A DNA stretch of 64,000 nucleotides from an uncultured Bacteroidota bacterium (GTDB taxonomy: Bacteria > Bacteroidota > Bacteroidia > Flavobacteriales > Flavobacteriaceae), in contig CABXKB010000001.1 of NCBI GenBank assembly GCA_902512755.1, forward strand, positions 80,356 to 144,355. The letters are read 5' to 3'. The position numbers and the translations under genes were made by a program. Shown here piece by piece: positions 11,686 through 34,837 of the stretch. Numbering within the stretch: the stretch's first letter is position 1; each line of letters opens with the position of its first letter. Below the pieces are notes generated by a model. It saw only the letters and a list, made by a program, of their open reading frames with translations, ran no database searches and was not told the DNA's origin.

Positions 11686-12417
11686 ATGAAATCCTTTTAC
11701 TTTATCGCTGTAATTTTTCTGTTATATATTAATATTTCGAAAGCTCAATGGCAGTATCGAACTGATGACAAACAGAATGAGATTATATCCGTCAATGATA
11801 AAAACAATAATTCATCCTTTTTGATAGAAAGAAAAAAAAATGGTAAAATTAATTTTTACATAAAAGGTGTTGGTGAAAGTGAATGTAAAATACAATCCAT
11901 TGAGTTTAGATTTGATGGAATAAAAGATGTCTTGTTATTCAAGGTTGAAAAATCAGAAGAGAAAAAATTAAAAATTTTATATGACGACATAAATGGTTTA
12001 GGTTATTTAAAGTCTTTTTCAAAATTGGTAAAGGAAAGGAATTTCATATATTCTCAATTTATCAATGTTTGTGGTATTAGCATTAATAAAAGATATAGTC
12101 TTAAAGGCTCTTCAAATGCCATAAATAAAATAAATTTGATACCATTTCTAAATAAAACAATTAAAATTACAGAAGCCAAAATGGCTAAAATTAAATTTAT
12201 TGAAAAGTCAATACCAAGATTAGAAACAAAAAATTTTCCTACTCATAGATTAAGAGATATAAATCCATTGGATATTACCGAGGTTTATTGGAAATCATAT
12301 CAAAATGACAAATATCATATTAAAATAAAACTTAAACTTAATGGTGAAAAAAGCAGAGAGCTATTTGGAAAATTCAAATTGTTTAAGCAAATTGATAAGA
12401 TTAAATCAAGGTATTAA
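11686..12417 (+). CDS. Exported protein of unknown function
   Basis: The 243-residue product has a signal peptide of about 20 residues (MKSFYFIAVIFLLYINISKA). The mature protein is rich in Lys and Ile with alternating strand-like segments and no motif I recognise. Lysine-rich segments near the C-terminus (HIKIKLKLNGEKSRELFGKF) give a positive charge. Base composition is even more AT-rich than the core genes around it. It lies alone in the accessory stretch. Its start is supported by the signal peptide; family and role are unknown. Confidence 0.6.
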   Translation: MKSFYFIAVIFLLYINISKAQWQYRTDDKQNEIISVNDKNNNSSFLIERKKNGKINFYIKGVGESECKIQSIEFRFDGIKDVLLFKVEKSEEKKLKILYDDINGLGYLKSFSKLVKERNFIYSQFINVCGISINKRYSLKGSSNAINKINLIPFLNKTIKITEAKMAKIKFIEKSIPRLETKNFPTHRLRDINPLDITEVYWKSYQNDKYHIKIKLKLNGEKSRELFGKFKLFKQIDKIKSRY

Positions 12418-12593: not shown

Positions 12594-12926
12594 TTCATAA
12601 TTTTAGATCGAAGGGAGGTTAAAAACAAAAACAGTGTAAATATTTAAAAATTATCTAAATAGGTTGCTTCATAGATATAGTTAATTTTTGATTTTCTTTT
12701 TGTAATTTCTTATTTCCCGGTTGAGTACAGCTTTATAATATAACTATTAAGATAATTTTTTTTATTATAATTAACTTATAATCAATATGTTAACATACAC
12801 TAATAAGTGAATTAACTTATTTATAAACATAAGTATATTATTAAATAATAAGTTTTTAAAATTTTTAATATTATTCTTATTTAGATTTAATAAAAACAAT
12901 TAAATTTGAATTTAAAATAAATATCT
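12594..12926. other. Gene-free, extremely AT-rich interval
   Basis: No coding frame is visible. The stretch 12760-12926 is almost pure A and T. A TAAATTTG at 12901-12908 matches the -7 promoter consensus and lies 18 bp before the ATG of the following gene, so the right end probably holds its promoter. Nothing else was recognised. Confidence 0.5.
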
Positions 12927-20318: not shown

Positions 20319-21740
20319 TTAAGAACTATTAAAACGCTTAATCAATCTTTTTTCCCAATATAAATATTCATTAAGATCTTGATTATTTATTTTAAAAAAC
20401 GGATATAATTCAGAATAACCCTTTTCTTTACTTAAAAGTGAATTTATAACTTCTGCAAATCCACAAAACTTTGGATAGCTTTTTGAACCAAAACCAAGAA
20501 CGGTATAATTTATCGATTTTAATTGTTTATATTTTTGAAATTGTAATTCAAACCGATTGGCATTAGATGGAGCTTCACCGTCTCCATAGGTTGATGTCAT
20601 TACAATAATTTTTTCTGCATTAGGGAAAATTTTATAATTATTTAAGCTACAAAAAGCCACCTTATTATTTTCTTTCTTTAGTTTTTTTAATAATCTTTTT
20701 ACGAACTGGTAAGTATTGCCTGTTTCTGAGCCATATAGTATAATAACTTTAGCTTCATTTAAATTATTTTTAGAAAATTTAAGTAATGCCCAACTAGTTC
20801 TTGATGTAATGAAAAGCCCTGAAAAAATAAAAAATAAAAGCGATATTGCGGTAATTGTTAATAGAAAAGCGATGAACATATTACTTTCTCCTGTGTGAAT
20901 CCAATATGCCCAAGCTTTAATCAAATAAGGGACAGAATGAATATCTTCAGTTAATATGCTATTATCTCCCCGCTGAAAAATAATAGTACGATTTAATAAT
21001 TGAATTTTAAATGTATCATTTATTGAAGAAGAAAATGGATATATGACATTTTGGACTTTATTAAGGAATAAATCATCTAGGTCAATATATCTTTCACCTG
21101 CTTTATACTCATGCTTAATAGATTTATTGTAATCAAAGACATATAGCCTTTCTGTGGTCAGGTAAAACCCACTAATTGCAGTAATAAAAACAGGGATTAA
21201 AAACCATCTTCCAAGTTCGACATGAAGCTTTCGAAAAAATTGACTTTCTTTAAAAGGGCCAAATATTTTAGTTAAACCACCAATTTTCTTAAGCAATAAT
21301 ATAAATCCAGTGAGTGCAAGTAATACTGTTAAAAAAGAAATAAAACCCATTAGAAATCGCCCACTCTTTTTTAAAAATAAAGAACGATGCAAGTTCTTCA
21401 TGAAGTTAGATAAGCTTGATCTTGGTTTAACATTGTCTATTTTCTCTCCCGTTTCTGGATTAACATATACTGTTTCAAATCCTTTGGAAGTAACTCCTTG
21501 CACCACAACAAAGTTTTTTTCAGTTACTGATATTTTATAGACTTCTTCAAAGTTGTTTTGAAGAGCATGCATGGTGTTTTTGAGACTGATTTTATCAAGA
21601 CCAGAAATAGCTTCTTGCTTAGACTGGTCAACAAATGCTTCAATGCCCAGATAGGTTCCTGTGACTGATGCGATAATTAAAAAAATAGAAACACTTATCG
21701 CTAACAAGAAGTGAGTGCTTCTCCATATTCCTTTTATCAT
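20319..21740 (-). CDS. PepSY-associated membrane protein fused to a flavodoxin domain
   Basis: This 473-residue inner-membrane protein begins with a PepSY-type TM region (helices about 9-31, 131-150, 180-200, 290-310). Its conserved His residues in NLHRSLF, RKLHVELGRW and YWIHTGE are probable heme ligands. Residues from about 332 form a flavodoxin domain: ILYGSETGNTYQFVKRL and MTSTYGDGEAPSNANRF, then LGFGSKSYPKFCGFAEVI. Many relatives continue with an FAD/NAD(P) reductase domain; this one stops after the flavodoxin. It probably passes electrons across the membrane to reduce iron or a siderophore (inference from family and operon). Its ATG overlaps the DUF2271 gene stop by 4 nt. Confidence 0.88.
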   Translation of the reverse strand: MIKGIWRSTHFLLAISVSIFLIIASVTGTYLGIEAFVDQSKQEAISGLDKISLKNTMHALQNNFEEVYKISVTEKNFVVVQGVTSKGFETVYVNPETGEKIDNVKPRSSLSNFMKNLHRSLFLKKSGRFLMGFISFLTVLLALTGFILLLKKIGGLTKIFGPFKESQFFRKLHVELGRWFLIPVFITAISGFYLTTERLYVFDYNKSIKHEYKAGERYIDLDDLFLNKVQNVIYPFSSSINDTFKIQLLNRTIIFQRGDNSILTEDIHSVPYLIKAWAYWIHTGESNMFIAFLLTITAISLLFFIFSGLFITSRTSWALLKFSKNNLNEAKVIILYGSETGNTYQFVKRLLKKLKKENNKVAFCSLNNYKIFPNAEKIIVMTSTYGDGEAPSNANRFELQFQKYKQLKSINYTVLGFGSKSYPKFCGFAEVINSLLSKEKGYSELYPFFKINNQDLNEYLYWEKRLIKRFNSS

Positions 21741-22237
21741 TTTTCTGGAAATATGAATTTGATGTTTAGAATAAAACCATTTCCTTCATATGATTTCTTC
21801 AAACTTTCTTCATTTAATGCGACATTAATATCGTCAGGATAATATCCTTTATCTTCAACTGCAGTTTCGAATCGAAGATAATTAGCATTATCATAAAGTA
21901 ATTTGGGAATTTCAAGTTGTAGAATTCTCGTTTCTCCTCCAGATATTGTTGGGCCAGACACTCCTTCAATTAAAGGATAAAAGTCATCATCCAAGAATAA
22001 ATTGTTTGCCTTAAGATGTTTCCAAAAAGACTTCATCTCTGAGAACCAAGTTTTATCAGATCCTAAAACATAAATTGTTTTTAAATATATTTCTTCATTA
22101 TCTATTATTGAAATCGAAAAATACGCACCTTCACCTCGATAGTCAGTCATTTCAACCATACACTTCAAAGAAATCATTTCTTCGCTTTTTGGATAGCACA
22201 AGAAAACTACTAGAAAAATATAAAATAAAATTTTCAT
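21737..22237 (-). CDS. DUF2271 family exported protein
   Basis: The 166-residue product has a signal peptide (MKILFYIFLVVFLCYP). The mature part shows the DUF2271 layout: AYFSISIIDNEEIYLKTIYV, then WFSEMKSFWKHLK, and EGVSGPTISGGETRILQLEI. DUF2271 proteins are periplasmic, of unknown activity, and commonly sit next to PepSY-TM reductase genes, as here where the reading frames overlap by 4 nt. It therefore probably assists the same reductase. The family assignment rests on pattern, not on a profile search. Confidence 0.72.
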   Translation of the reverse strand: MKILFYIFLVVFLCYPKSEEMISLKCMVEMTDYRGEGAYFSISIIDNEEIYLKTIYVLGSDKTWFSEMKSFWKHLKANNLFLDDDFYPLIEGVSGPTISGGETRILQLEIPKLLYDNANYLRFETAVEDKGYYPDDINVALNEESLKKSYEGNGFILNIKFIFPEK

Positions 22238-22385: not shown

Positions 22386-24809
22386 TTAAAATTTGATTTG
22401 TGTACTTAAATAAATATTTCTGTTTGGTGAGGTTATTATACCTGGGCCAGGATATCCCGTTGCTCTACGGGTAAAATAAGCTTCGTTTAAAAAATTATTT
22501 ATTCCAAATTCTAATTTAATTTTATTTAACGTATAGGATCCAGAAAAATCTAATAGTTTGTAACTAGGAATAAGACCAATAACTCCACTCAAATTTCCTT
22601 TAATTGCATTTGATGAATCTGTGTATTGATTTGAAACAAAACTATATTGAAGATTAAGTGCTAAATTTTTGTATCCAAACTGAAGACCTGTTTTAATGTT
22701 ATTTTCCGGTACAAATTCAACATTCTTACCAATTATTCCTGGAGTAGAAGATTCAGTATATTTTGATTTGATAAATGAATAATTTAAAAAGCTTTTTAAT
22801 GAATATATTGTATTATCAAAATTCAGTAACTCTGAAATATTTAAATCTATTAATGATTCTAAGCCATTCAGTCTTGCATTCCCCACATTTCCACGTTCGC
22901 TTTTAACACTTCCGTCTTGAAAAACTTTTTGAATAAAACCAATTCTATCTTGATATGCTATGTGGAAAAAATTTATATCAAATGAAATTATTTTATTTAT
23001 TTTTCCTCTAATTCCTAAATCAAGAGTATAACCTTTTTCATCTGTGATATTTGGGTTAATTGCAAAAGCTGGATTAATAATGCTTATATCGGTGAAAGTA
23101 ACTGATCGGTAGTTTTGGGAACCATTCCCATAAATTTCAAGAGAATTAGGTGTTTTATAACTCAACCCAATTCCAAGTAGAATGAAAGATCTTTGACGTT
23201 CCTCTTCTGAATTTAGGGTTTCATTGAAAATAACATTTCCAGCTGCATCAGTGTTAATTTTTTGATAACTTCCCATAGTTGAGGTAAGAATATTTTCATA
23301 TCTGATTCCAGGTGTAATTGAAAAGTCATCGTTCAAATAAAAAATATTTTCCGAAAACAGTGCAATATTTTTATTGGGATAAATATAATTTGATTGTTTA
23401 CTATATCTAGGGTATTGTTCTTTATAGAATGAAAAATCAGGATCTGATAATGCTGATCCTGGTCCTTGAGCGGATGTATTTCGAGCCCTGTAATATTTTC
23501 CTCCTAAAAGTAAAACTGATTGATTATTTCCAAGGGTATAGTTTTGCAGCCACTTTAATTCAACTCCATAATTGTTAAAATCGCCTTTAATTAGGTCTCT
23601 TTCCTGATTAGGATCTATTTGACTTACACGATTTGATCGAAACCCCACGGAGTTACGTTGAGCATTTAAACCAAAAACATTTAGACTTAAATTTGAATTT
23701 TCTGAGAAACCATGTTCAAATTTTAAATTGTATAAAAACCAATATAGCCCAAACCAATTCCTTTTTCTATTGCTTTGATAAGGATTTTCTTGAAAAAGAT
23801 CATCAGTAAGTCCTCCTGCCTGTTGAGCTAAATAATCGAGATAAGTTACTTCTGCACTAACCTTTGTATCCTTAGAGATATCATGACTTAATTTAAAAAA
23901 GAAATTAGAAGAATTAAATTTTGAGTTGGGTCTAAATCCATTACCTTTTTTTAAATTAAAAAAACTAGCATATCGCCATTTTCCGAGTCGGCCATTCATT
24001 TGAGTAAAATTTGTGTAAAGGCCGTTCGAACCAAGTGTATTTCTTGTTAATAAACTAATTGGACGGTAAGTTGTTGTTTCTTTAAGTTTAAAATTTAACA
24101 ATCCTCCAAATTGTGTTCCATATTGTAAAGAAGCTGCTCCTCGGATAACCTGTATTTCTTCTAAAGCCTCTGCTGGCGGCGTATAATAACTTTCTGGATA
24201 ACCTAATACATCTGCGCTTATGTCATAATTGTTTTGACGAGTATTGAAATTAGAAGTTCGATTTGGATCTAATCCTCTGCCTCCAATATGCAATTGAAGT
24301 CCAGCATCATCATTTTGATATATATTCAATCCAGAAATTTGATTGAATATCTGTCTAGCGTTGTTTGATGCAAGATTTGCCATTGATTGTTCTACAAGAA
24401 TGACTTCAGTTTTCTTGCCAGCATAGATCGCTGTTTTTTCAAAGTCTTTCATTCTTTTTAGTGCAAAAATATCTTTCTTTTTTGCATTTAAAATAATCTC
24501 ATTTAATTTTTCTAAACGTCGTGGAATAATAATATTCATGGTGCTTTTATCATTAAAATCAATTTCTTTTTCAATAATTGAATAATCGTTTGAAATAAAA
24601 ACATAAGTAGCTTTAGAAGTTTTACTTTTAATTACAAACTTTTCACCTTCTTCAATTTCATTAATAAAGCCCTCATTTTTATTATATACTTTAATAAAAG
24701 CTTTCAAGTCATCCTTTTCTTCAAGTTTAATGATACATTCGACACTGAATTGAGCATAGCTATTGAAGCTAATGATTAAAAATAATAGACTATAAACCGT
24801 ATATTTCAT
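22386..24809 (-). CDS. TonB-dependent receptor (FecA/siderophore-type)
   Basis: This 807-residue outer-membrane transporter has a signal peptide (MKYTVYSLLFLIISFNSYAQ), a short carboxypeptidase-regulatory-like segment, and a plug with LASNNARQIFNQISGLNIYQ, HIGGRGLDPNRTSNFNTRQN and EEIQVIRGAASLQYGTQFGG. The barrel contains NSLEIYGNGSQNYRSVTFTD and a final GYPGPGIITSPNRNIYLSTQ IKF end. The pattern matches Fe3+-dicitrate/siderophore receptors. The start lies 20 nt inside the HTTM gene, showing tight coupling. With imelysin-type and PepSY proteins in the operon, iron or another metal complex is the likely ligand. Confidence 0.93.
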   Translation of the reverse strand: MKYTVYSLLFLIISFNSYAQFSVECIIKLEEKDDLKAFIKVYNKNEGFINEIEEGEKFVIKSKTSKATYVFISNDYSIIEKEIDFNDKSTMNIIIPRRLEKLNEIILNAKKKDIFALKRMKDFEKTAIYAGKKTEVILVEQSMANLASNNARQIFNQISGLNIYQNDDAGLQLHIGGRGLDPNRTSNFNTRQNNYDISADVLGYPESYYTPPAEALEEIQVIRGAASLQYGTQFGGLLNFKLKETTTYRPISLLTRNTLGSNGLYTNFTQMNGRLGKWRYASFFNLKKGNGFRPNSKFNSSNFFFKLSHDISKDTKVSAEVTYLDYLAQQAGGLTDDLFQENPYQSNRKRNWFGLYWFLYNLKFEHGFSENSNLSLNVFGLNAQRNSVGFRSNRVSQIDPNQERDLIKGDFNNYGVELKWLQNYTLGNNQSVLLLGGKYYRARNTSAQGPGSALSDPDFSFYKEQYPRYSKQSNYIYPNKNIALFSENIFYLNDDFSITPGIRYENILTSTMGSYQKINTDAAGNVIFNETLNSEEERQRSFILLGIGLSYKTPNSLEIYGNGSQNYRSVTFTDISIINPAFAINPNITDEKGYTLDLGIRGKINKIISFDINFFHIAYQDRIGFIQKVFQDGSVKSERGNVGNARLNGLESLIDLNISELLNFDNTIYSLKSFLNYSFIKSKYTESSTPGIIGKNVEFVPENNIKTGLQFGYKNLALNLQYSFVSNQYTDSSNAIKGNLSGVIGLIPSYKLLDFSGSYTLNKIKLEFGINNFLNEAYFTRRATGYPGPGIITSPNRNIYLSTQIKF

Positions 24810-26160
24810 CTTTCAATGGTAATATCCATTTTTTATTTTCAAAGGATTCGATTTGTTTATTAAGATCAATATTAGGATCAATAAATCGTTGACTTGGACG
24901 CCCATTCAAGGCAACAAAACTATCCGCGAATATTTGAATATTTTCATGACCTTGGTTTTCAAAATGATGAGCCAAATAATGAGCATATTCTAATATGAAG
25001 TCAGGCTGAAAGCTCATTTGTTTTTCCTGGAATGAACTCAAAAAATCTGAATTATCAACATAGAATACTTTTTGCGTGACACTGTCTTTAACTTTGAAAG
25101 TAGTATATCCTTTCTTTTCCATAAGCATAACTCTCCAAGAAAAACGATACCCTTGTTCGTTCCAGAACAATTCTCCAGGATAAGCTAAATGTCTAAAAGG
25201 AAAAAGAAGTTGAAAAATAAAAAAGCATATAAAAACAGGAAGAACTAGACCATGATTTTTATGTTTAGAATAAATAGATTTATTATTTACTATCTCACTT
25301 TTATTAATAATATCTCCAATGTTTTTAATAATATTTCTTAGTTGAGAAATCCATTTTTGATGTATTGATTCGTCAAAAAAGATCAATGCGCAAAAAATCA
25401 TTATAAAAGGGAACATTCCAATAGGTGGGAAAAAGATTTTTGTCAACATATGAAAAATAATAACAAATAGAAAAGCAATTTTTCTAGTTTTCTTTGAAAG
25501 CAGAAAAAATGGTATAAACACATCATATAACATCCCGAACCAACTGGCTGCATGATGGATAAAATTTAATTGTAATATCTCGCCTATAATTGGAATGTCA
25601 TATTTAGAGGTAAGCCAAATAGATAGTGGCTGGGCTTCTATTAGCCAATCAGAATTGATTTTTGCAATTCCAGCGTAAAAATACACAATACACAAGAATA
25701 ATTTTAATGCATCAATGTTCCATGCAGGGACTTCATTAACTTTTATATTTTTATCAGCATCTAAAGAGAAGTAACTTGCTGCTGGAAGAAAACATAACAT
25801 AAATGCAACACAGCTTATAAAATAATAATGATTTAAATAGGTAGTTTTATCAATTAACTCGATGTATGTGAATATTAAAAAAAAACTTATGATAGAAAGT
25901 CGATAGCGATAACCAAGTATGATTCCTATGCTTGATATAATGCAAATAGAATAAAGGAGATAATTAAAAACTCCTAAATCATTGACCCAGAAAAAACCGA
26001 AGTATTTAAAATGAAATTTAGGAGTGATATAAAGTGTTTCTATCCAATCATTCGCCCAAAAACGAACTAAAGCAATTAGCATCAAAAGGCCAAATAGAAT
26101 GCGAAAAACAGCTAATGGGGCAGGATGTAAGGTGGCTTCTTTGAAATATTTTCTAAGCAT
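24790..26160 (-). CDS. HTTM protein, vitamin K-dependent gamma-carboxylase homologue
   Basis: This 456-residue polytopic membrane protein has the HTTM core with about seven to eight hydrophobic segments up to residue 260 and one more near 305, then a soluble C-terminal domain. It keeps the key positions of gamma-glutamyl carboxylase: LNHYYF (His111, compare human His160), YFYAGIAKINSDWL (Lys167, compare the catalytic-base Lys218), and FHMLTKIFFPPIGMFPFIM (His237). FRHLAYPGELFWNEQGYRFS is the conserved lumenal-domain opening. The animal enzyme carboxylates Glu to Gla using vitamin K hydroquinone and CO2; menaquinol could serve here. It lies between an imelysin lipoprotein gene (42 bp upstream) and a TonB receptor (20-nt overlap). 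Confidence 0.88.
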   Translation of the reverse strand: MLRKYFKEATLHPAPLAVFRILFGLLMLIALVRFWANDWIETLYITPKFHFKYFGFFWVNDLGVFNYLLYSICIISSIGIILGYRYRLSIISFFLIFTYIELIDKTTYLNHYYFISCVAFMLCFLPAASYFSLDADKNIKVNEVPAWNIDALKLFLCIVYFYAGIAKINSDWLIEAQPLSIWLTSKYDIPIIGEILQLNFIHHAASWFGMLYDVFIPFFLLSKKTRKIAFLFVIIFHMLTKIFFPPIGMFPFIMIFCALIFFDESIHQKWISQLRNIIKNIGDIINKSEIVNNKSIYSKHKNHGLVLPVFICFFIFQLLFPFRHLAYPGELFWNEQGYRFSWRVMLMEKKGYTTFKVKDSVTQKVFYVDNSDFLSSFQEKQMSFQPDFILEYAHYLAHHFENQGHENIQIFADSFVALNGRPSQRFIDPNIDLNKQIESFENKKWILPLKDEIYGL

Positions 26161-26202
26161 TGTTCTAATAGCTCTTAATCCAAAATAATATATTTAATTT
26201 AA

Positions 26203-27393
26203 TTAATCTCCATCAGCATCTGCATAGTCAACGCTGATATTAAGTTTTTGCAACATGTCAACTTTAAGCATAACAACAGTTTTTTGAATTGCATCATAGG
26301 TGGCTAACATCTGATTGTTATTCTCTTCAATTTGTAATTTAAAATTGTCATTAAGTTCTAATATTTTATCTTTTGCTATTTTTAATTGATTATTTATTCG
26401 TTCACTTAGCTTGTCATCAATATCTGTTTCTAAATAATCTAAATATTGTTTTAAACTTAAGCCAATCTCTTCAGGATCATCATAATGTTTGCCATTAAAA
26501 AATTGTTCTATTGCTTTACCGGCTTCTAGCGATAGTAGTTTAGAATAGTTTTCACCATAATAGGATTCAATTCTATCTGGAAGCGGTTTTCCAGAGAAAA
26601 CACCTGCAGGTATGCCAAATTTATTTGCACGATACCCTTTTTCAAAATAAAATATAAAGTCATTTATAATTAGATTAATACTTGAAGTTGCTGTATTATC
26701 AGTAGATTCTATAAATGATTCCCGGTAAGATCCTTCCCACTGGGTTTTTACCTGATTTGTTAATTCAACCATTTGGGAGATAATATCATTTAGATAAGTG
26801 CCGTAGTTAAGGCTGCTATCAGAATATTTTGCAGTGATCTTATTTTCGTTTTCATCAATACCAAATAATAGATAGTCCAAAGCTGAAAAACCTTGAGAGG
26901 AAAAATTAGAGCTTTTATCTAGATCATAATTTTTATTAGAAATATTGTTTTCAATCCTATCAATATTAACAGGATAAAGATTCATTCTGTTTTTAAAATA
27001 AATTTCTTCAGCAATTCCAATGTCAAACATTTCTATGTATTGCCATTTTAAGTAACTAATTAACCAAATTTCTTTTAAACTGTTTAAGTTATCAATTGTA
27101 GGAGTATTTGCAAACGTTTTAGAGACTTCTTGAAATTCTGTAAGTGAATTTTGAAAATTGGTTATTGACGGTATAATTATTTTATCAGCCCAATTAGTTA
27201 ACATCTCTTTATGGTCGAAAGAAATAGTTGTAGTAGTATTTTGAGAATTGCTATTGTTTGAGTCATTTTCTGATTCTGTTGCTTCGTTAGAAGATGTTAC
27301 AACTTCAGTTTCTATAGTTTCTTCTATATCATTAGAGCAATGATTTAATAATAACATTAATAAAACCGGAAAAAGTAATATATGTTTTTTCAT
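26203..27393 (-). CDS. Imelysin-like (peptidase M75 family) lipoprotein
   Basis: The 396-residue product begins with a lipoprotein-type signal (MKKHILLFPVLLMLLLNHCS, Cys19). A linker with seven Glu within residues 24-42 and a Ser/Asn/Thr-rich stretch follows, then an all-helical imelysin domain (about 65-396: MLTNWADKIIIPSITNFQNS, LKEIWLISYLKWQYIEMFDI). The family motif GxHxxE appears as GFSALDYLLFG (168-178), lacking His and Glu, so protease activity is unlikely. Imelysin proteins are linked to iron uptake. ATG 27393 is the natural start; an upstream in-frame start would precede the signal and run through the 27405-27432 hairpin. It lies between DUF4856 and HTTM genes. Confidence 0.88.
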   Translation of the reverse strand: MKKHILLFPVLLMLLLNHCSNDIEETIETEVVTSSNEATESENDSNNSNSQNTTTTISFDHKEMLTNWADKIIIPSITNFQNSLTEFQEVSKTFANTPTIDNLNSLKEIWLISYLKWQYIEMFDIGIAEEIYFKNRMNLYPVNIDRIENNISNKNYDLDKSSNFSSQGFSALDYLLFGIDENENKITAKYSDSSLNYGTYLNDIISQMVELTNQVKTQWEGSYRESFIESTDNTATSSINLIINDFIFYFEKGYRANKFGIPAGVFSGKPLPDRIESYYGENYSKLLSLEAGKAIEQFFNGKHYDDPEEIGLSLKQYLDYLETDIDDKLSERINNQLKIAKDKILELNDNFKLQIEENNNQMLATYDAIQKTVVMLKVDMLQKLNISVDYADADGD

Positions 27394-27396
27394 AAT

Positions 27397-27432
27397 AAAA
27401 AAGAGCAAGTGTTTTTTTAAAAAAACACTTGC
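27397..27432 (-). terminator. Perfect 28-nt palindrome with T tract between DUF4856 and imelysin genes
   Basis: 27405-27432 is a perfect palindrome: GCAAGTG, seven T, seven A, CACTTGC. On the minus strand it is followed by TCTTTTTTATT. It has terminator form but lies inside the operon, so it may attenuate transcription and make the first gene more abundant than the rest. Confidence 0.7.
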
Positions 27433-27497
27433 ATCTAAGGAGCTATTAAACTTCAATTATTAACAAGTTTATAGGTTTATGGTTATAGCTCTTTCTT

Positions 27498-28751
27498 TTA
27501 GGGCAATGTTAATCCAGTAGCTGAAGCAACTTCAGCAGCCATGACAGTTAGTTCATCAGCTGTTCTTCCCCAGAATCCTCCATCACCAGCAGAAAGCCTA
27601 CCAAGAAGATCATTTACCTCTTCGTTGGTCATGTAGGGATTCCCTGATGAGTCTTTTGTAAACTGAAGACCTATTATGAAACCATAAGCTTCAGATAAAG
27701 CATGTAAAGCATCTGCCCAATCTCCATTTGTAATATCTTCAGCTCCATCAACTAAATAAGATTGTGCTTTATAGCCAACCACTTTAGATATTTCTGCTGA
27801 AATTATACCTGCTTGTTTGTCACGTTCTGTATAATCTTTATTTACAATAGCAGCTCTACCAGCAATAAAGGCCTTATAAATCTTATCGCTAATACCCTCT
27901 TCGTTAGATTGAGAGTTTATTTTATTTAAATAGTAATTTAAGTTTGCAGTGTCTCTTCCTGAGGCTGGATCGCCTAGACCCGACTTAAATTGACTATCTA
28001 AGCCATATAAATATCCAAAACCTTCATCCCAGTAGTGTTCCATCTTGGTAATTGAATTTTCAGTTTCACCTGGATATGTGTAGCCATAAATTCCAGCATC
28101 GTTATCTTCTCGAGCACCGTCAAGTTTTGAAAATGATAAATAGTTGTTAACTATTTGATCTACTTGAAGTGCTCCAATCAATCCCTTCGAAAATACCTGA
28201 TTTAATTCGAAGCCTTTAGCTGTAACCTTCACAGTTCGAGAACCATCCGCTTCTGTATAAGATCCTGCAATACCGGAAGCGGCAGTTGTTTCAGCAATTA
28301 CAGCTGGAGCAACAACTGTTGTAAAATCATTGATCCATCCATCAAAGAGTGGTTTTACTGTTGCAGAAGCCACAGGGGATGCAGCTGTTTTTCCACGCAC
28401 ATTTTTCCCACTAGCATCAAGGGTAGGGTCTGTGAAGCCTGTTCCAGAGGCAAACATAGTGTCAATTTGATCTTTAGTATAATCAGTATTATTCATAGCT
28501 GACTTTAGTTCAGTAGCCATTCCAACTCTTGCTGTTTGACCAGTATAGAAAACTGTCGAAACTCCACCTCTAGTAAATGAATACTCTTCAGGTAGTATAT
28601 AAACATTTTCTACAACTGTAACAGTTTCAACTTCTGTAACAGTAACTGTTTCAGTCACTATTTTTTCTACTTCTACAATTTCGGTAATTGTCTCTGTCTC
28701 AGTACAACCTATTGCAAAAAGCATTATAAGTGTTAAATACATTTTTTTCAT
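27498..28751 (-). CDS. DUF4856 family lipoprotein (imelysin-associated)
   Basis: The 417-residue product has a clear lipoprotein signal (MKKMYLTLIMLFAIGCTE, Cys16). The first 32 residues of the mature chain are an unusual Thr/Val/Glu low-complexity stretch with nine Glu (residues 18-48). The folded part contains YSFTRGGVSTVFYTGQTARV, MEHYWDEGFGYLYG and ALSEAYGFIIGLQF, matching DUF4856, a helical family related to imelysin and found beside it in Bacteroidota. It is probably a periplasmic or surface metal-binding lipoprotein (inference). It is the first gene of the operon behind a well-formed promoter. Confidence 0.85.
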   Translation of the reverse strand: MKKMYLTLIMLFAIGCTETETITEIVEVEKIVTETVTVTEVETVTVVENVYILPEEYSFTRGGVSTVFYTGQTARVGMATELKSAMNNTDYTKDQIDTMFASGTGFTDPTLDASGKNVRGKTAASPVASATVKPLFDGWINDFTTVVAPAVIAETTAASGIAGSYTEADGSRTVKVTAKGFELNQVFSKGLIGALQVDQIVNNYLSFSKLDGAREDNDAGIYGYTYPGETENSITKMEHYWDEGFGYLYGLDSQFKSGLGDPASGRDTANLNYYLNKINSQSNEEGISDKIYKAFIAGRAAIVNKDYTERDKQAGIISAEISKVVGYKAQSYLVDGAEDITNGDWADALHALSEAYGFIIGLQFTKDSSGNPYMTNEEVNDLLGRLSAGDGGFWGRTADELTVMAAEVASATGLTLP

Positions 28752-28762
28752 AATTAATTTTA

Positions 28763-28841
28763 TTAAGATTAAGTCTAAATAGATTCGGCAAATATACTTC
28801 CCATATGTTTATTATCAAAATTTATTTAGATTAATTATAAA
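28763..28841 (-). promoter_or_regulatory. Two operator-like imperfect palindromes flanking the DUF4856 operon promoter
   Basis: 28763-28779 reads TTAAGA-TTAAG-TCTAAA and 28825-28841 reads TTTAGA-TTAAT-TATAAA. Both fit an approximate palindrome TTTAGA-N5-TCTAAA. One lies just downstream of the expected transcription start and one just upstream of the -33 element, a layout suited to repression, for example by a DtxR-type metal regulator. Only these two sites were compared, so the motif is a hypothesis. Confidence 0.35.
28789..28818 (-). promoter_or_regulatory. Promoter of the DUF4856-imelysin-HTTM-TonB receptor operon
   Basis: On the minus strand TTG (28818-28816) and TATATTTG (28796-28789) are separated by 19 bp, the same geometry as the tRNA-His promoter. 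The first ATG of the operon is 38 bp further on. Confidence 0.65.
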
Positions 28842-28857
28842 TAGAAGAAGAAATAAG

Positions 28858-33486: not shown

Positions 33487-33930
33487 CTACTTAAAATATT
33501 TTAGAGGCACCCAAAGCATTCCAAAACACTCACCTTTCTCTTTATTAATGTTTTTATGATGAATTTTATGTGCTCTACGAATACCTTTTGTATATCGGTT
33601 ATTAGCATTTTTAAGCAACTTAAATCGTTGATGAATGAAAACATCATGCACCAAAAAATAAGTTAAACCATACAATGATATCCCTAACGCTATAGGTAAT
33701 CCAAACCAAAAATTTAATTCTCCCCATAGCACAACAAATCCAGAACTTACTAGTGCATAAAAAATAAAAAACAAATCATTACGCTCAAACCACGATTTGT
33801 GATCTTTAACATGGTGGTCTTTGTGTAAAGACCATAAGAAACCGTGCATAATATATTTGTGAGAAAACCATGCCATAAATTCCATTAATACGAAGGTTAA
33901 TATAACTGTAAAAATCCAGAGTGTTATCAT
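33487..33930 (-). CDS. crtZ: Beta-carotene hydroxylase, fatty acid hydroxylase superfamily
   Basis: This 147-residue membrane enzyme hydroxylates beta-carotene to zeaxanthin. The diiron histidine clusters are present: HKYIMHG and LHKDHH near residues 24-40, HDVFIHQRF near 94, and RRAHKIHH near 118. Four hydrophobic segments fit the CrtZ topology. It follows crtB by 5 bp and converges with surA by 1 bp. It is the last gene of the merR-crtB-crtZ set. Confidence 0.93.
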   Translation of the reverse strand: MITLWIFTVILTFVLMEFMAWFSHKYIMHGFLWSLHKDHHVKDHKSWFERNDLFFIFYALVSSGFVVLWGELNFWFGLPIALGISLYGLTYFLVHDVFIHQRFKLLKNANNRYTKGIRRAHKIHHKNINKEKGECFGMLWVPLKYFK

Positions 33931-33935
33931 TTTCC

Positions 33936-34775
33936 TTATATAAGATTTAATCTATACTTTAAGTAACTACGAGCAAAAACAGTAATTTTTTGATAATTTG
34001 GTACTCGTATTCTAGTGTTTTTAATATTTATTGAAGGAGTACGCTTTAGCTTTAGTAATAGTTTGCTGTAATATTTATATGCAGTGTATACTCCAAAACG
34101 AGCTTCATTAGGTAGTTTAAAAATCCCTGTCAATGCATAGTCAAAATCTTTTTCAATATCTTTGATTATTAACAGCTTAGAATCTTCATCAAATTTCTTA
34201 AAATTTACATTTGGAAAATAAGTTCGATCTAATTCTTGAAAATCATTTTTTAAATCTCTAAGAAAATTCACTTTCTGAAAAGCAGAACCTAAAGCCATTG
34301 CTGTTGGCTTGAGTTCTTCATATTTTGAGAAATTACCTTTAACAAAAACCTTTAAGCACATAAGTCCTACAACGTCTGCAGATCCATATATGTATTCCTT
34401 GAAGTCTTCTTCTGTTTCATAAACTTTTTTTTCTAAATCCCACCTCATGCTTTTTAAGAATGATGCGATTAGCTTATGATCAATTGAAAACTCATCAACA
34501 GTTTTTTGAAATGAATTAAGAATAGGATTTAAACTAATCTTATTTTTTAAGCTATAATATAAATCTTCTTCAAATCTATTTAGAAGTTCTTTTTTTGGAT
34601 ATTCATGAAAACTGTCTACTATTTCGTCAGCAAAACGAACAAAACCGTAGATATTATATATATGATTTCTAATGCTTGAATGAAGCATTTTAGTAGCCAA
34701 AGAAAAAGAAGTGCTATAAGATTGAGTAACTGATCTACTGCAGTCTTCTGAAACAGAATCAAATAATTTTTTCAT
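33936..34775 (-). CDS. crtB: Phytoene synthase
   Basis: This 279-residue prenyl-transferase condenses two geranylgeranyl diphosphates to phytoene. Both aspartate-rich motifs are present: FVRFADEIVD near residue 49 and NFLRDLKNDFQELDRTYFP near residue 172, with GSADVVGLMCL between them. The ATG at 34775 is preferred; an in-frame ATG or ATT-rich leader at 34790 would add five residues. It lies 62 bp after the MerR-type regulator gene. The phytoene desaturase gene crtI, usually beside crtB in flavobacteria, is missing here. Confidence 0.93.
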   Translation of the reverse strand: MKKLFDSVSEDCSRSVTQSYSTSFSLATKMLHSSIRNHIYNIYGFVRFADEIVDSFHEYPKKELLNRFEEDLYYSLKNKISLNPILNSFQKTVDEFSIDHKLIASFLKSMRWDLEKKVYETEEDFKEYIYGSADVVGLMCLKVFVKGNFSKYEELKPTAMALGSAFQKVNFLRDLKNDFQELDRTYFPNVNFKKFDEDSKLLIIKDIEKDFDYALTGIFKLPNEARFGVYTAYKYYSKLLLKLKRTPSINIKNTRIRVPNYQKITVFARSYLKYRLNLI

Positions 34776-34837
34776 GGCCTTTATTATCAATTAGGCGGTT
34801 AAAATTATTTATAAATATAAGTAAAACCTAGAAAATA

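Follow-up and report, generated by a model that had tools for sequence, protein, structure and literature searches.

A close known counterpart of the enzyme considered here is animal GGCX. A homologue of this vitamin K-dependent gamma-carboxylase (VKGC) is encoded in a 64,000-nucleotide stretch of DNA, here called the window, from an uncultured member of the Flavobacteriaceae (GenBank assembly GCA_902512755.1, contig CABXKB010000001.1, positions 80,356 to 144,355), where it stands in a row with genes for a DUF4856 lipoprotein, an imelysin-like lipoprotein and a TonB-dependent receptor. VKGC and GGCX share the HTTM and lumenal domains, the fold, the catalytic Lys and His, the Asn of the Glu pocket and the Phe residues of the vitamin K pocket. 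Unlike GGCX, VKGC has no link to VKOR and is encoded in a probable iron-uptake row. PMC4555120 mentions a VKGC homologue of Leptospira, another bacterial member of the family. The Leptospira protein is not known to have the catalytic Lys or carboxylase activity. The row also resembles imelysin/EfeUOB-type operons (PA4370-PA4373 and relatives), which have imelysin lipoprotein genes, Fur regulation and predicted iron uptake in common with it (PMC3143127). As far as the main text of that source goes, imelysins are tied to EfeB peroxidases and the words HTTM, carboxylase and TonB do not occur, whereas the window row has DUF4856, VKGC and a TonB receptor as partners; the row imelysins also mostly lack the GxHxxE motif of the ICMP and IrpA subfamilies and come nearer to the GxxxxE variant. 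A likeness in gene order is also seen at RAYM_09779-09794 of Riemerella anatipestifer, where a TonB receptor, an annotated vitamin K-dependent gamma-carboxylase, an imelysin and a hypothetical protein lie in one row and are included in a table of Fur and iron responses (PMC5609570). That source gives the locus tag of the carboxylase a single time, in this table, and proposes no role for it. The carboxylase family, the imelysin operons and Fur control are all known already; in the open-licence literature, screened mostly by listings, we found no role for VKGC in the row, no function for the row and no account of the exchange with a PF04116 protein described below.

The VKGC gene (24790..26160, minus strand) encodes 456 residues that match the HTTM family PF05090 over residues 12-264 (243.6 bits) and the VKGC lumenal domain PF22777 over residues 305-452 (208.3 bits), both far over the Pfam cut-offs. 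Residues 12-450 align to the human GGCX chains in the PDB with an E value of about 2e-44, placing His111 (codon at 25828..25830, minus strand) at GGCX H160 and Lys167 (25660..25662, minus strand) at the catalytic base, K218, with FHMLTKIFFPPIGMFPF opposite the FH...IGMF stretch. The sequence-only reading of this DNA had assigned these residues and this motif to catalytic positions of GGCX, and the alignment bears it out. The AlphaFold model of the protein (pLDDT 84.2) points the same way. Its Foldseek search gave 16 matches at E<=0.001, every one of them to GGCX, the best having an E of 1.5e-21; TM by query ranges over 0.67-0.82. All 107 unsplit operon VKGCs have N110, H111, K167, W172, F236 and F250, the counterparts of GGCX N159, H160, K218, W223, F286 and F299, and F244 (GGCX F294) is Phe in 106 of them, the remaining one being an unread X. 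A missing Lys in close homologues had been named beforehand as telling against the sequence-only reading; none of the 107 lacks it. The equivalent of GGCX Y395 is Tyr in 84 and Phe in 23, and in an earlier mixed set that included VKGCs outside the row, N110, H111 and K167 were present in 67 of 67. In the GGCX structure described in PMC12589487, these residues belong to the Glu pocket and the vitamin K pocket or act as the catalytic base. Judged by its sequence, VKGC is related to human GGCX over its full length and retains the catalytic Lys, His and Asn.

The row is read from the minus strand and begins with the DUF4856 lipoprotein gene (27498..28751; PF16148, E 7.9e-88; Cys at residue 16), followed by the imelysin-like lipoprotein gene (26203..27393; PF09375), VKGC and the TonB-dependent receptor gene (22386..24809), which shares 20 nt with the stop end of VKGC; genes for a DUF2271 protein and a PepSY-flavodoxin protein come after it. 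The imelysin start is taken as the ATG at 27393, with the stop ending at 26203, and the open reading frame list begins it earlier, at a TTG. Its product matches the Peptidase_M75 profile at 99.2 bits against a cut-off of 23.5. The receptor has a weak FecA-type similarity, far below the cut-off of that model. The AlphaFold model of the window DUF4856 protein has a mean pLDDT of 89.6, and a Foldseek search of the PDB with it gave no match at E<=0.001.

Comparison loci came from 60 VKGC regions in author-picked places of the order (40 with the row and 20 without), 20 added regions surrounding genes for DUF4856 or VKGC, and 80 named loci retrieved with an alignment of DUF4856. These 80 are the top-scoring ones among at least 584 and are skewed towards relatives of the window. 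Imelysin and TonB receptor genes occur together in 126 loci, a set that leaves out loci with no TonB receptor on the stretch, and VKGC lies between them in 115, or in 110 of 120 once six duplicates are dropped (L105, L106, L108, L110, L125 and L127). A draw across the phylum found DUF4856 in 58 of 395 genomes. It gave 49 distinct DUF4856 places (L162-L211; G357 twice), of which 44 show DUF4856, imelysin and VKGC in order, one of them after a longer stretch, and five have DUF4856 without imelysin. The row of DUF4856, imelysin, carboxylase and TonB receptor thus recurs in the phylum at large, where a minority of genomes carry it. The imelysin motif position reads GFSALD in the window and mostly GxPAxD in its relatives. 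A further feature of these imelysins is their C-terminus, which reads DADGD in the window (26203-26220) and takes the form DxDGD or similar at the last residues elsewhere, the DGD end being present in 109 of 110 proteins from rows with VKGC and 10 of 10 from rows without it. It resembles a metal-binding tail with a free carboxylate.

Regulation of the row can be predicted from its upstream region. A Fur-box-like palindrome with one mismatch to ATTTAGAnnnnnTCTAAAT lies at 28762..28780, 10 nt upstream of the DUF4856 start, and a second, also with one mismatch, lies at 28824..28842. Compared with the Fur consensus of R. anatipestifer (PMC5609570), 70 of the 109 upstreams of the row, each of 150 bp, contain a match with no more than one mismatch and 105 contain one with no more than two; among 4360 dinucleotide shuffles, none match at the first threshold and 1.3% at the second. 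A first scan that allowed up to three mismatches had matched 49 of 49 upstreams and was replaced because it was too lax, also matching 44% of simple shuffles. At locus L128, from Polaribacter, the row is adjoined by genes for an ATPase, a permease and a solute-binding protein, each named by Pfam for one example, which likely form an ABC transporter of the ferric type. Of the 126 operon loci, 20 have a relative of the solute-binding protein and 21 a relative of the permease. The Fur-box matches, together with this likely ferric transporter beside 20 of 126 loci, indicate that the row is probably an iron-repressed iron-uptake operon, which is its best-supported predicted role. The link to metal uptake and the neighbouring TonB receptor, suggested when the window was first read, has thus gained ground from the Fur boxes, the likely ferric ABC genes and the Fur table of Riemerella (PMC5609570). 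Elsewhere in the window a further Fur-box-like palindrome with one mismatch (12642-12660) fronts no listed start, the nearest open reading frames of at least 120 residues ending at 12417 (plus strand) and 13566 (minus strand).

With moderate confidence, we propose that VKGC, as the third gene of a conserved and predicted iron-repressed iron-uptake row, likely carboxylates acidic residues of an operon partner in the periplasm. Iron starvation would relieve Fur repression at the row promoter, and the two lipoproteins and the receptor would then pass through the periplasm, where VKGC would modify one of them. Its active site is expected to face the periplasm by analogy with GGCX, whose active site faces the lumen of the endoplasmic reticulum, and its co-substrates would be menaquinol, O2 and CO2. 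The modification may take place during export of the DUF4856 protein, the imelysin or both, most likely at conserved Glu residues of the folded domains, and the carboxyglutamate (Gla) formed would serve as metal ligands. The finished surface complex would collect iron and hand it over to the TonB receptor. Some lineages would instead have an equivalent task carried out by a di-iron PF04116 oxygenase.

Several observations weigh against this proposal. The row can do without VKGC, as imelysin and TonB receptor genes lie together with no VKGC in 11 of 126 loci (10 after duplicate removal). Alignments of the DUF4856 protein, the imelysin and the TonB receptor contain no Glu column that tracks VKGC, and their conserved Glu residues are also kept in operons without VKGC, so that no Glu is marked as a substrate; nor was a Gla-domain-like Glu cluster seen among the conserved columns. 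The active sites of PF04116 proteins probably lie on the cytoplasmic side of the membrane, in poor agreement with a matching function in the periplasm. VKOR, the known enzyme of vitamin K recycling, is present in 7 of 39 genomes with VKGC as against 10 of 17 without it, in a survey of 56 author-picked genomes that did not contain the incomplete genome of the window itself, and was rejected as a VKGC partner. On the enzyme, the propeptide-binding exosite and Arch domain of GGCX are poorly preserved: the position of K217 is Ala in 105 of 107 operon VKGCs, that of Y425 is Tyr in just 55 of 107, and the alignment of the window VKGC stops at GGCX residue 506. PMC12589487 ties K217 to substrate binding, and Y425 is a propeptide contact. 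The pocket residue M401 is replaced by Val in 107 of 107. As the catalytic pocket residues are invariant, and K217, Y425, M401 and the part past residue 506 are not conserved, catalysis appears intact in VKGC and substrate recognition looks different from that of animal GGCX.

A few columns other than Glu do differ with VKGC, namely R80, L229, D230 and Y326 of DUF4856 and N146, Y425 and G525 of the receptor (open-frame numbering). They were rejected as VKGC-linked; shared ancestry suffices to explain them because at least two rows without VKGC keep the usual residue at each.

Departures from the common row involve a second enzyme. At L128 the VKGC slot is occupied by a 330-residue protein that Pfam assigns to the fatty acid hydroxylase-type family PF04116. 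The family is known for hydroxylation of lipids and small molecules. Relatives of this gene adjoin the row at L063-L067, L069, L070, L125 and L157 and adjoin DUF4856 at L068 and L071, and several have beside them a small membrane gene that is weakly DoxX-like and under the Pfam cut-off. No PF04116 relative occurs in any VKGC-bearing locus of L002-L161, and none was found in the DUF4856 stretches of the phylum draw, 30 of which are just about 4 kb long. Across the 296 genomes of the order sample, the VKGC lumenal-domain query matched in 84 and the PF04116 subfamily, at 170 bits or more, in 10. Nine DUF4856 genomes of this sample have no VKGC at all, and the subfamily is present in eight of these nine and in none of the 60 with VKGC (Fisher 1.1e-9, which ignores ancestry); L071 (G259) is probably a foreign contig, and without it the first count becomes 7 of 8. 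The one VKGC-less DUF4856 genome with no strong PF04116 match, G083, is 65% complete. Among weaker matches, the VKGC genome G271 has one of 79 bits from another subfamily, and G296, G297 and G299 have several weak PF04116 paralogues. Two genomes have the subfamily without DUF4856: in G229 the gene stands right at the end of a contig, which cuts off its surroundings, and in G025 its setting is a different one. Tenacibaculum MAR_2009_124 has a row with neither gene (L118) and a PF04116 gene elsewhere, at 59% identity. A search of four genomes with VKGC-less rows for the VKGC lumenal domain elsewhere found none, although control genomes also gave no match. VKGC and the PF04116 oxygenase are not homologous and are mutually exclusive in the sampled DUF4856 genomes. 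On the tree this exchange needs four changes, two of them forced by supported branches, and so it probably happened at least twice.

The exchange keeps open a small molecule or a lipid as the target of both enzymes, which could then be alternative oxygen-dependent ways to release or process an iron carrier by acting on an imported chelator, a quinone or a membrane lipid. This possibility, which we regard as doubtful, would account for the exclusive replacement (8/9 against 0/60 genomes, with the slot exchange at L128) and would require neither a Glu column that tracks VKGC nor a conserved propeptide exosite. It does not fit as well with the invariance of the residues that form the Glu-binding pocket (GGCX N159 and H160), or with retention of the lumenal domain, which holds the protein substrate in GGCX.

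Some VKGC loci have a companion gene. A gene for a DCC1-like thiol-disulfide oxidoreductase (PF04134) is present in 28 of 110 VKGC loci, usually directly after the TonB receptor, as at L111 (14278-14700). It is found in none of the 10 loci without VKGC, although in three of these the sequence stops too close behind the receptor for a judgement. In the order sample, each of the 11 f11 genomes with VKGC has the gene within 3 kb of VKGC, and it also abuts VKGCs outside the operon in L050 and L053. Ten VKGC-less genomes were searched for it, and it is absent from three and away from the row in seven; the genome of the window has one, on another contig. At a guess, the DCC1-like protein might recycle quinone epoxide in a manner that does not involve VKOR. 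Alternatively, the carboxylation half of VKGC may be silent, and the protein would be a quinol-O2 redox module (an epoxidase) that, coupled to the DCC1-like protein, provides electrons or takes away oxygen while ferric iron is handled. We consider this unlikely: the invariant vitamin K pocket and the distribution of the DCC1-like gene agree with it, but it would not call for invariance of N110 and H111, whose GGCX equivalents are linked to carboxylation and the binding of Glu, and VKGC-bearing genomes are mostly without VKOR.

The proposal of periplasmic carboxylation can be extended to a fuller scheme, which we put forward only tentatively, of carboxyglutamate iron uptake in Bacteroidota. A menaquinol-driven enzyme of the GGCX type would furnish iron-binding lipoproteins of the surface with ligands of Gla or carboxy-Asp, the DCC1-like protein would recycle the quinone epoxide without VKOR, and some lineages would swap the whole enzyme step for an unrelated di-iron PF04116 oxygenase making an equivalent oxygen-derived ligand.

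The sequence-only reading had placed the substrate in the Glu-rich tails that follow the lipidated Cys of both lipoproteins, which would become a surface metal-binding brush. Both of its counts were recovered from the window. The DUF4856 stalk (28608..28703, minus strand; residues 17-48) has nine Glu, at residues 18, 20, 24, 27, 29, 34, 40, 42 and 48, and the acidic stretch of the imelysin (27268..27336, minus strand; residues 20-42) has seven, at 24, 25, 28, 30, 37, 40 and 42. The stalk is lineage-specific. Close relatives retain it: among the 120 best DUF4856 homologues, the 47 in which the pattern recognised a lipobox average 9.9 Glu ahead of the domain, and the other 73 did not enter the count. 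It is also present in L082-L088, all seven of which have VKGC. Over the family as a whole the tails are much poorer. Counting only tails with a recognised lipobox (101 of 108 DUF4856 proteins and 96 of 110 imelysins from VKGC loci), the median number of Glu in the first 30 residues after the Cys is 2 for DUF4856 (n=101) and 1 for imelysin (n=96) in operons with VKGC, and 1 (n=10) and 1 (n=9) in those without it. Both tails could be read in 87 VKGC loci; of these, only the window reaches seven or more Glu per 30 residues in the two tails alike, and 40 have at most two in each. The prediction that Glu-rich linkers would co-occur with HTTM genes did not hold up, as tails with at least three Glu in 30 residues do not separate operons with and without VKGC (46/101 vs 2/10 for DUF4856, Fisher 0.18; 26/96 vs 2/9 for imelysin, Fisher 1.0). 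Even within the clade of the window, where the DUF4856 stalk is built of TETVTE/EVPVEV, the number of Glu falls from nine to three between L091 and L092 with VKGC kept in both, and the related loci L092 and L093 have 3-4 stalk Glu and retain VKGC.

Acidity of another kind does differ between the two sorts of operon. A common tail start in VKGC operons is CSSDDD or similar, and the window tails begin CTETET and CSNDIEE. At least two acidic residues stand at +2 to +6 in 91 of 101 DUF4856 tails with VKGC as against 5 of 10 without (Fisher 0.004), and in 58 of 96 imelysin tails as against 0 of 9 (Fisher 0.0005). The tree holds two independent pairs for this contrast on supported branches and four on all branches, too few to separate it from ancestry. 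The DUF4856 residues concerned are mostly Asp (193 Asp vs 63 Glu). They resemble the export signal of Bacteroidota surface lipoproteins, in which acidic residues directly follow the lipidated Cys in the form K-(D/E)2 or SDDDD/SDDFE (PMC5080379). It is more likely that the acidic stretch of the row lipoproteins acts as an export signal of this kind or a stalk than as a substrate. Given the low family medians, the window being alone in its richness in both tails and the drop from nine to three Glu with VKGC kept, the tails are unlikely to be a general carboxylation substrate, though they may carry Gla in the clade of the window, and carboxylated tails forming a metal-binding brush are an improbable explanation of the locus, despite the stalk shared by close relatives and L082-L088 and the commoner acidic residues at +2 to +6 in VKGC-bearing operons.

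The VKGC family can work away from the row partners, as 20 of the 60 fetched VKGC regions lie outside the row, some in genomes that also have it. It is conceivable from this that VKGC modifies a protein encoded elsewhere and that the operon gives it iron-dependent expression alone. The placement between imelysin and TonB receptor throughout the phylum and the clean swap in that slot make this very improbable. A second VKGC group (L022-L031, L044 and L078) is found outside the iron row with its catalytic Lys and His intact. It adjoins a gene that we take to be like riboflavin kinase (12 loci), often near a presumed seryl-tRNA synthetase-like gene (10 loci).

Downstream of the receptor, the window has a DUF2271 periplasmic protein gene (21737..22237, minus strand) and a gene for a PepSY-TM and flavodoxin membrane protein, a possible flavin reductase (20319..21740, minus strand), whose membership of the operon is unsure. 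By sequence, the pair occurs in 0 of 60 loci from other genomes, and the two were rejected as fixed partners of the row. The pair (20319-22237) could form a flavin-driven ferric reductase. Farther along, at 33487-34790, a short hydroxylase-like membrane protein gene, presumably beta-carotene hydroxylase-like, lies beside a gene we take to be phytoene synthase-like; these are probably carotenoid genes.

For one large group of bacterial relatives of the vitamin K carboxylase, the context, the predicted regulation and the active site are now pinned down. Species without VKGC are natural knock-outs, and the chemistry is hinted at concretely by the exchange with an unrelated oxygenase at one position of the row. 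The full row is present in Bizionia argentinensis JUB59 (L138), a strain for which PMC9478572 reports a gene deletion, which makes the role of the enzyme directly testable. If Gla were found, it would tie post-translational carboxylation of Glu to iron acquisition in bacteria.

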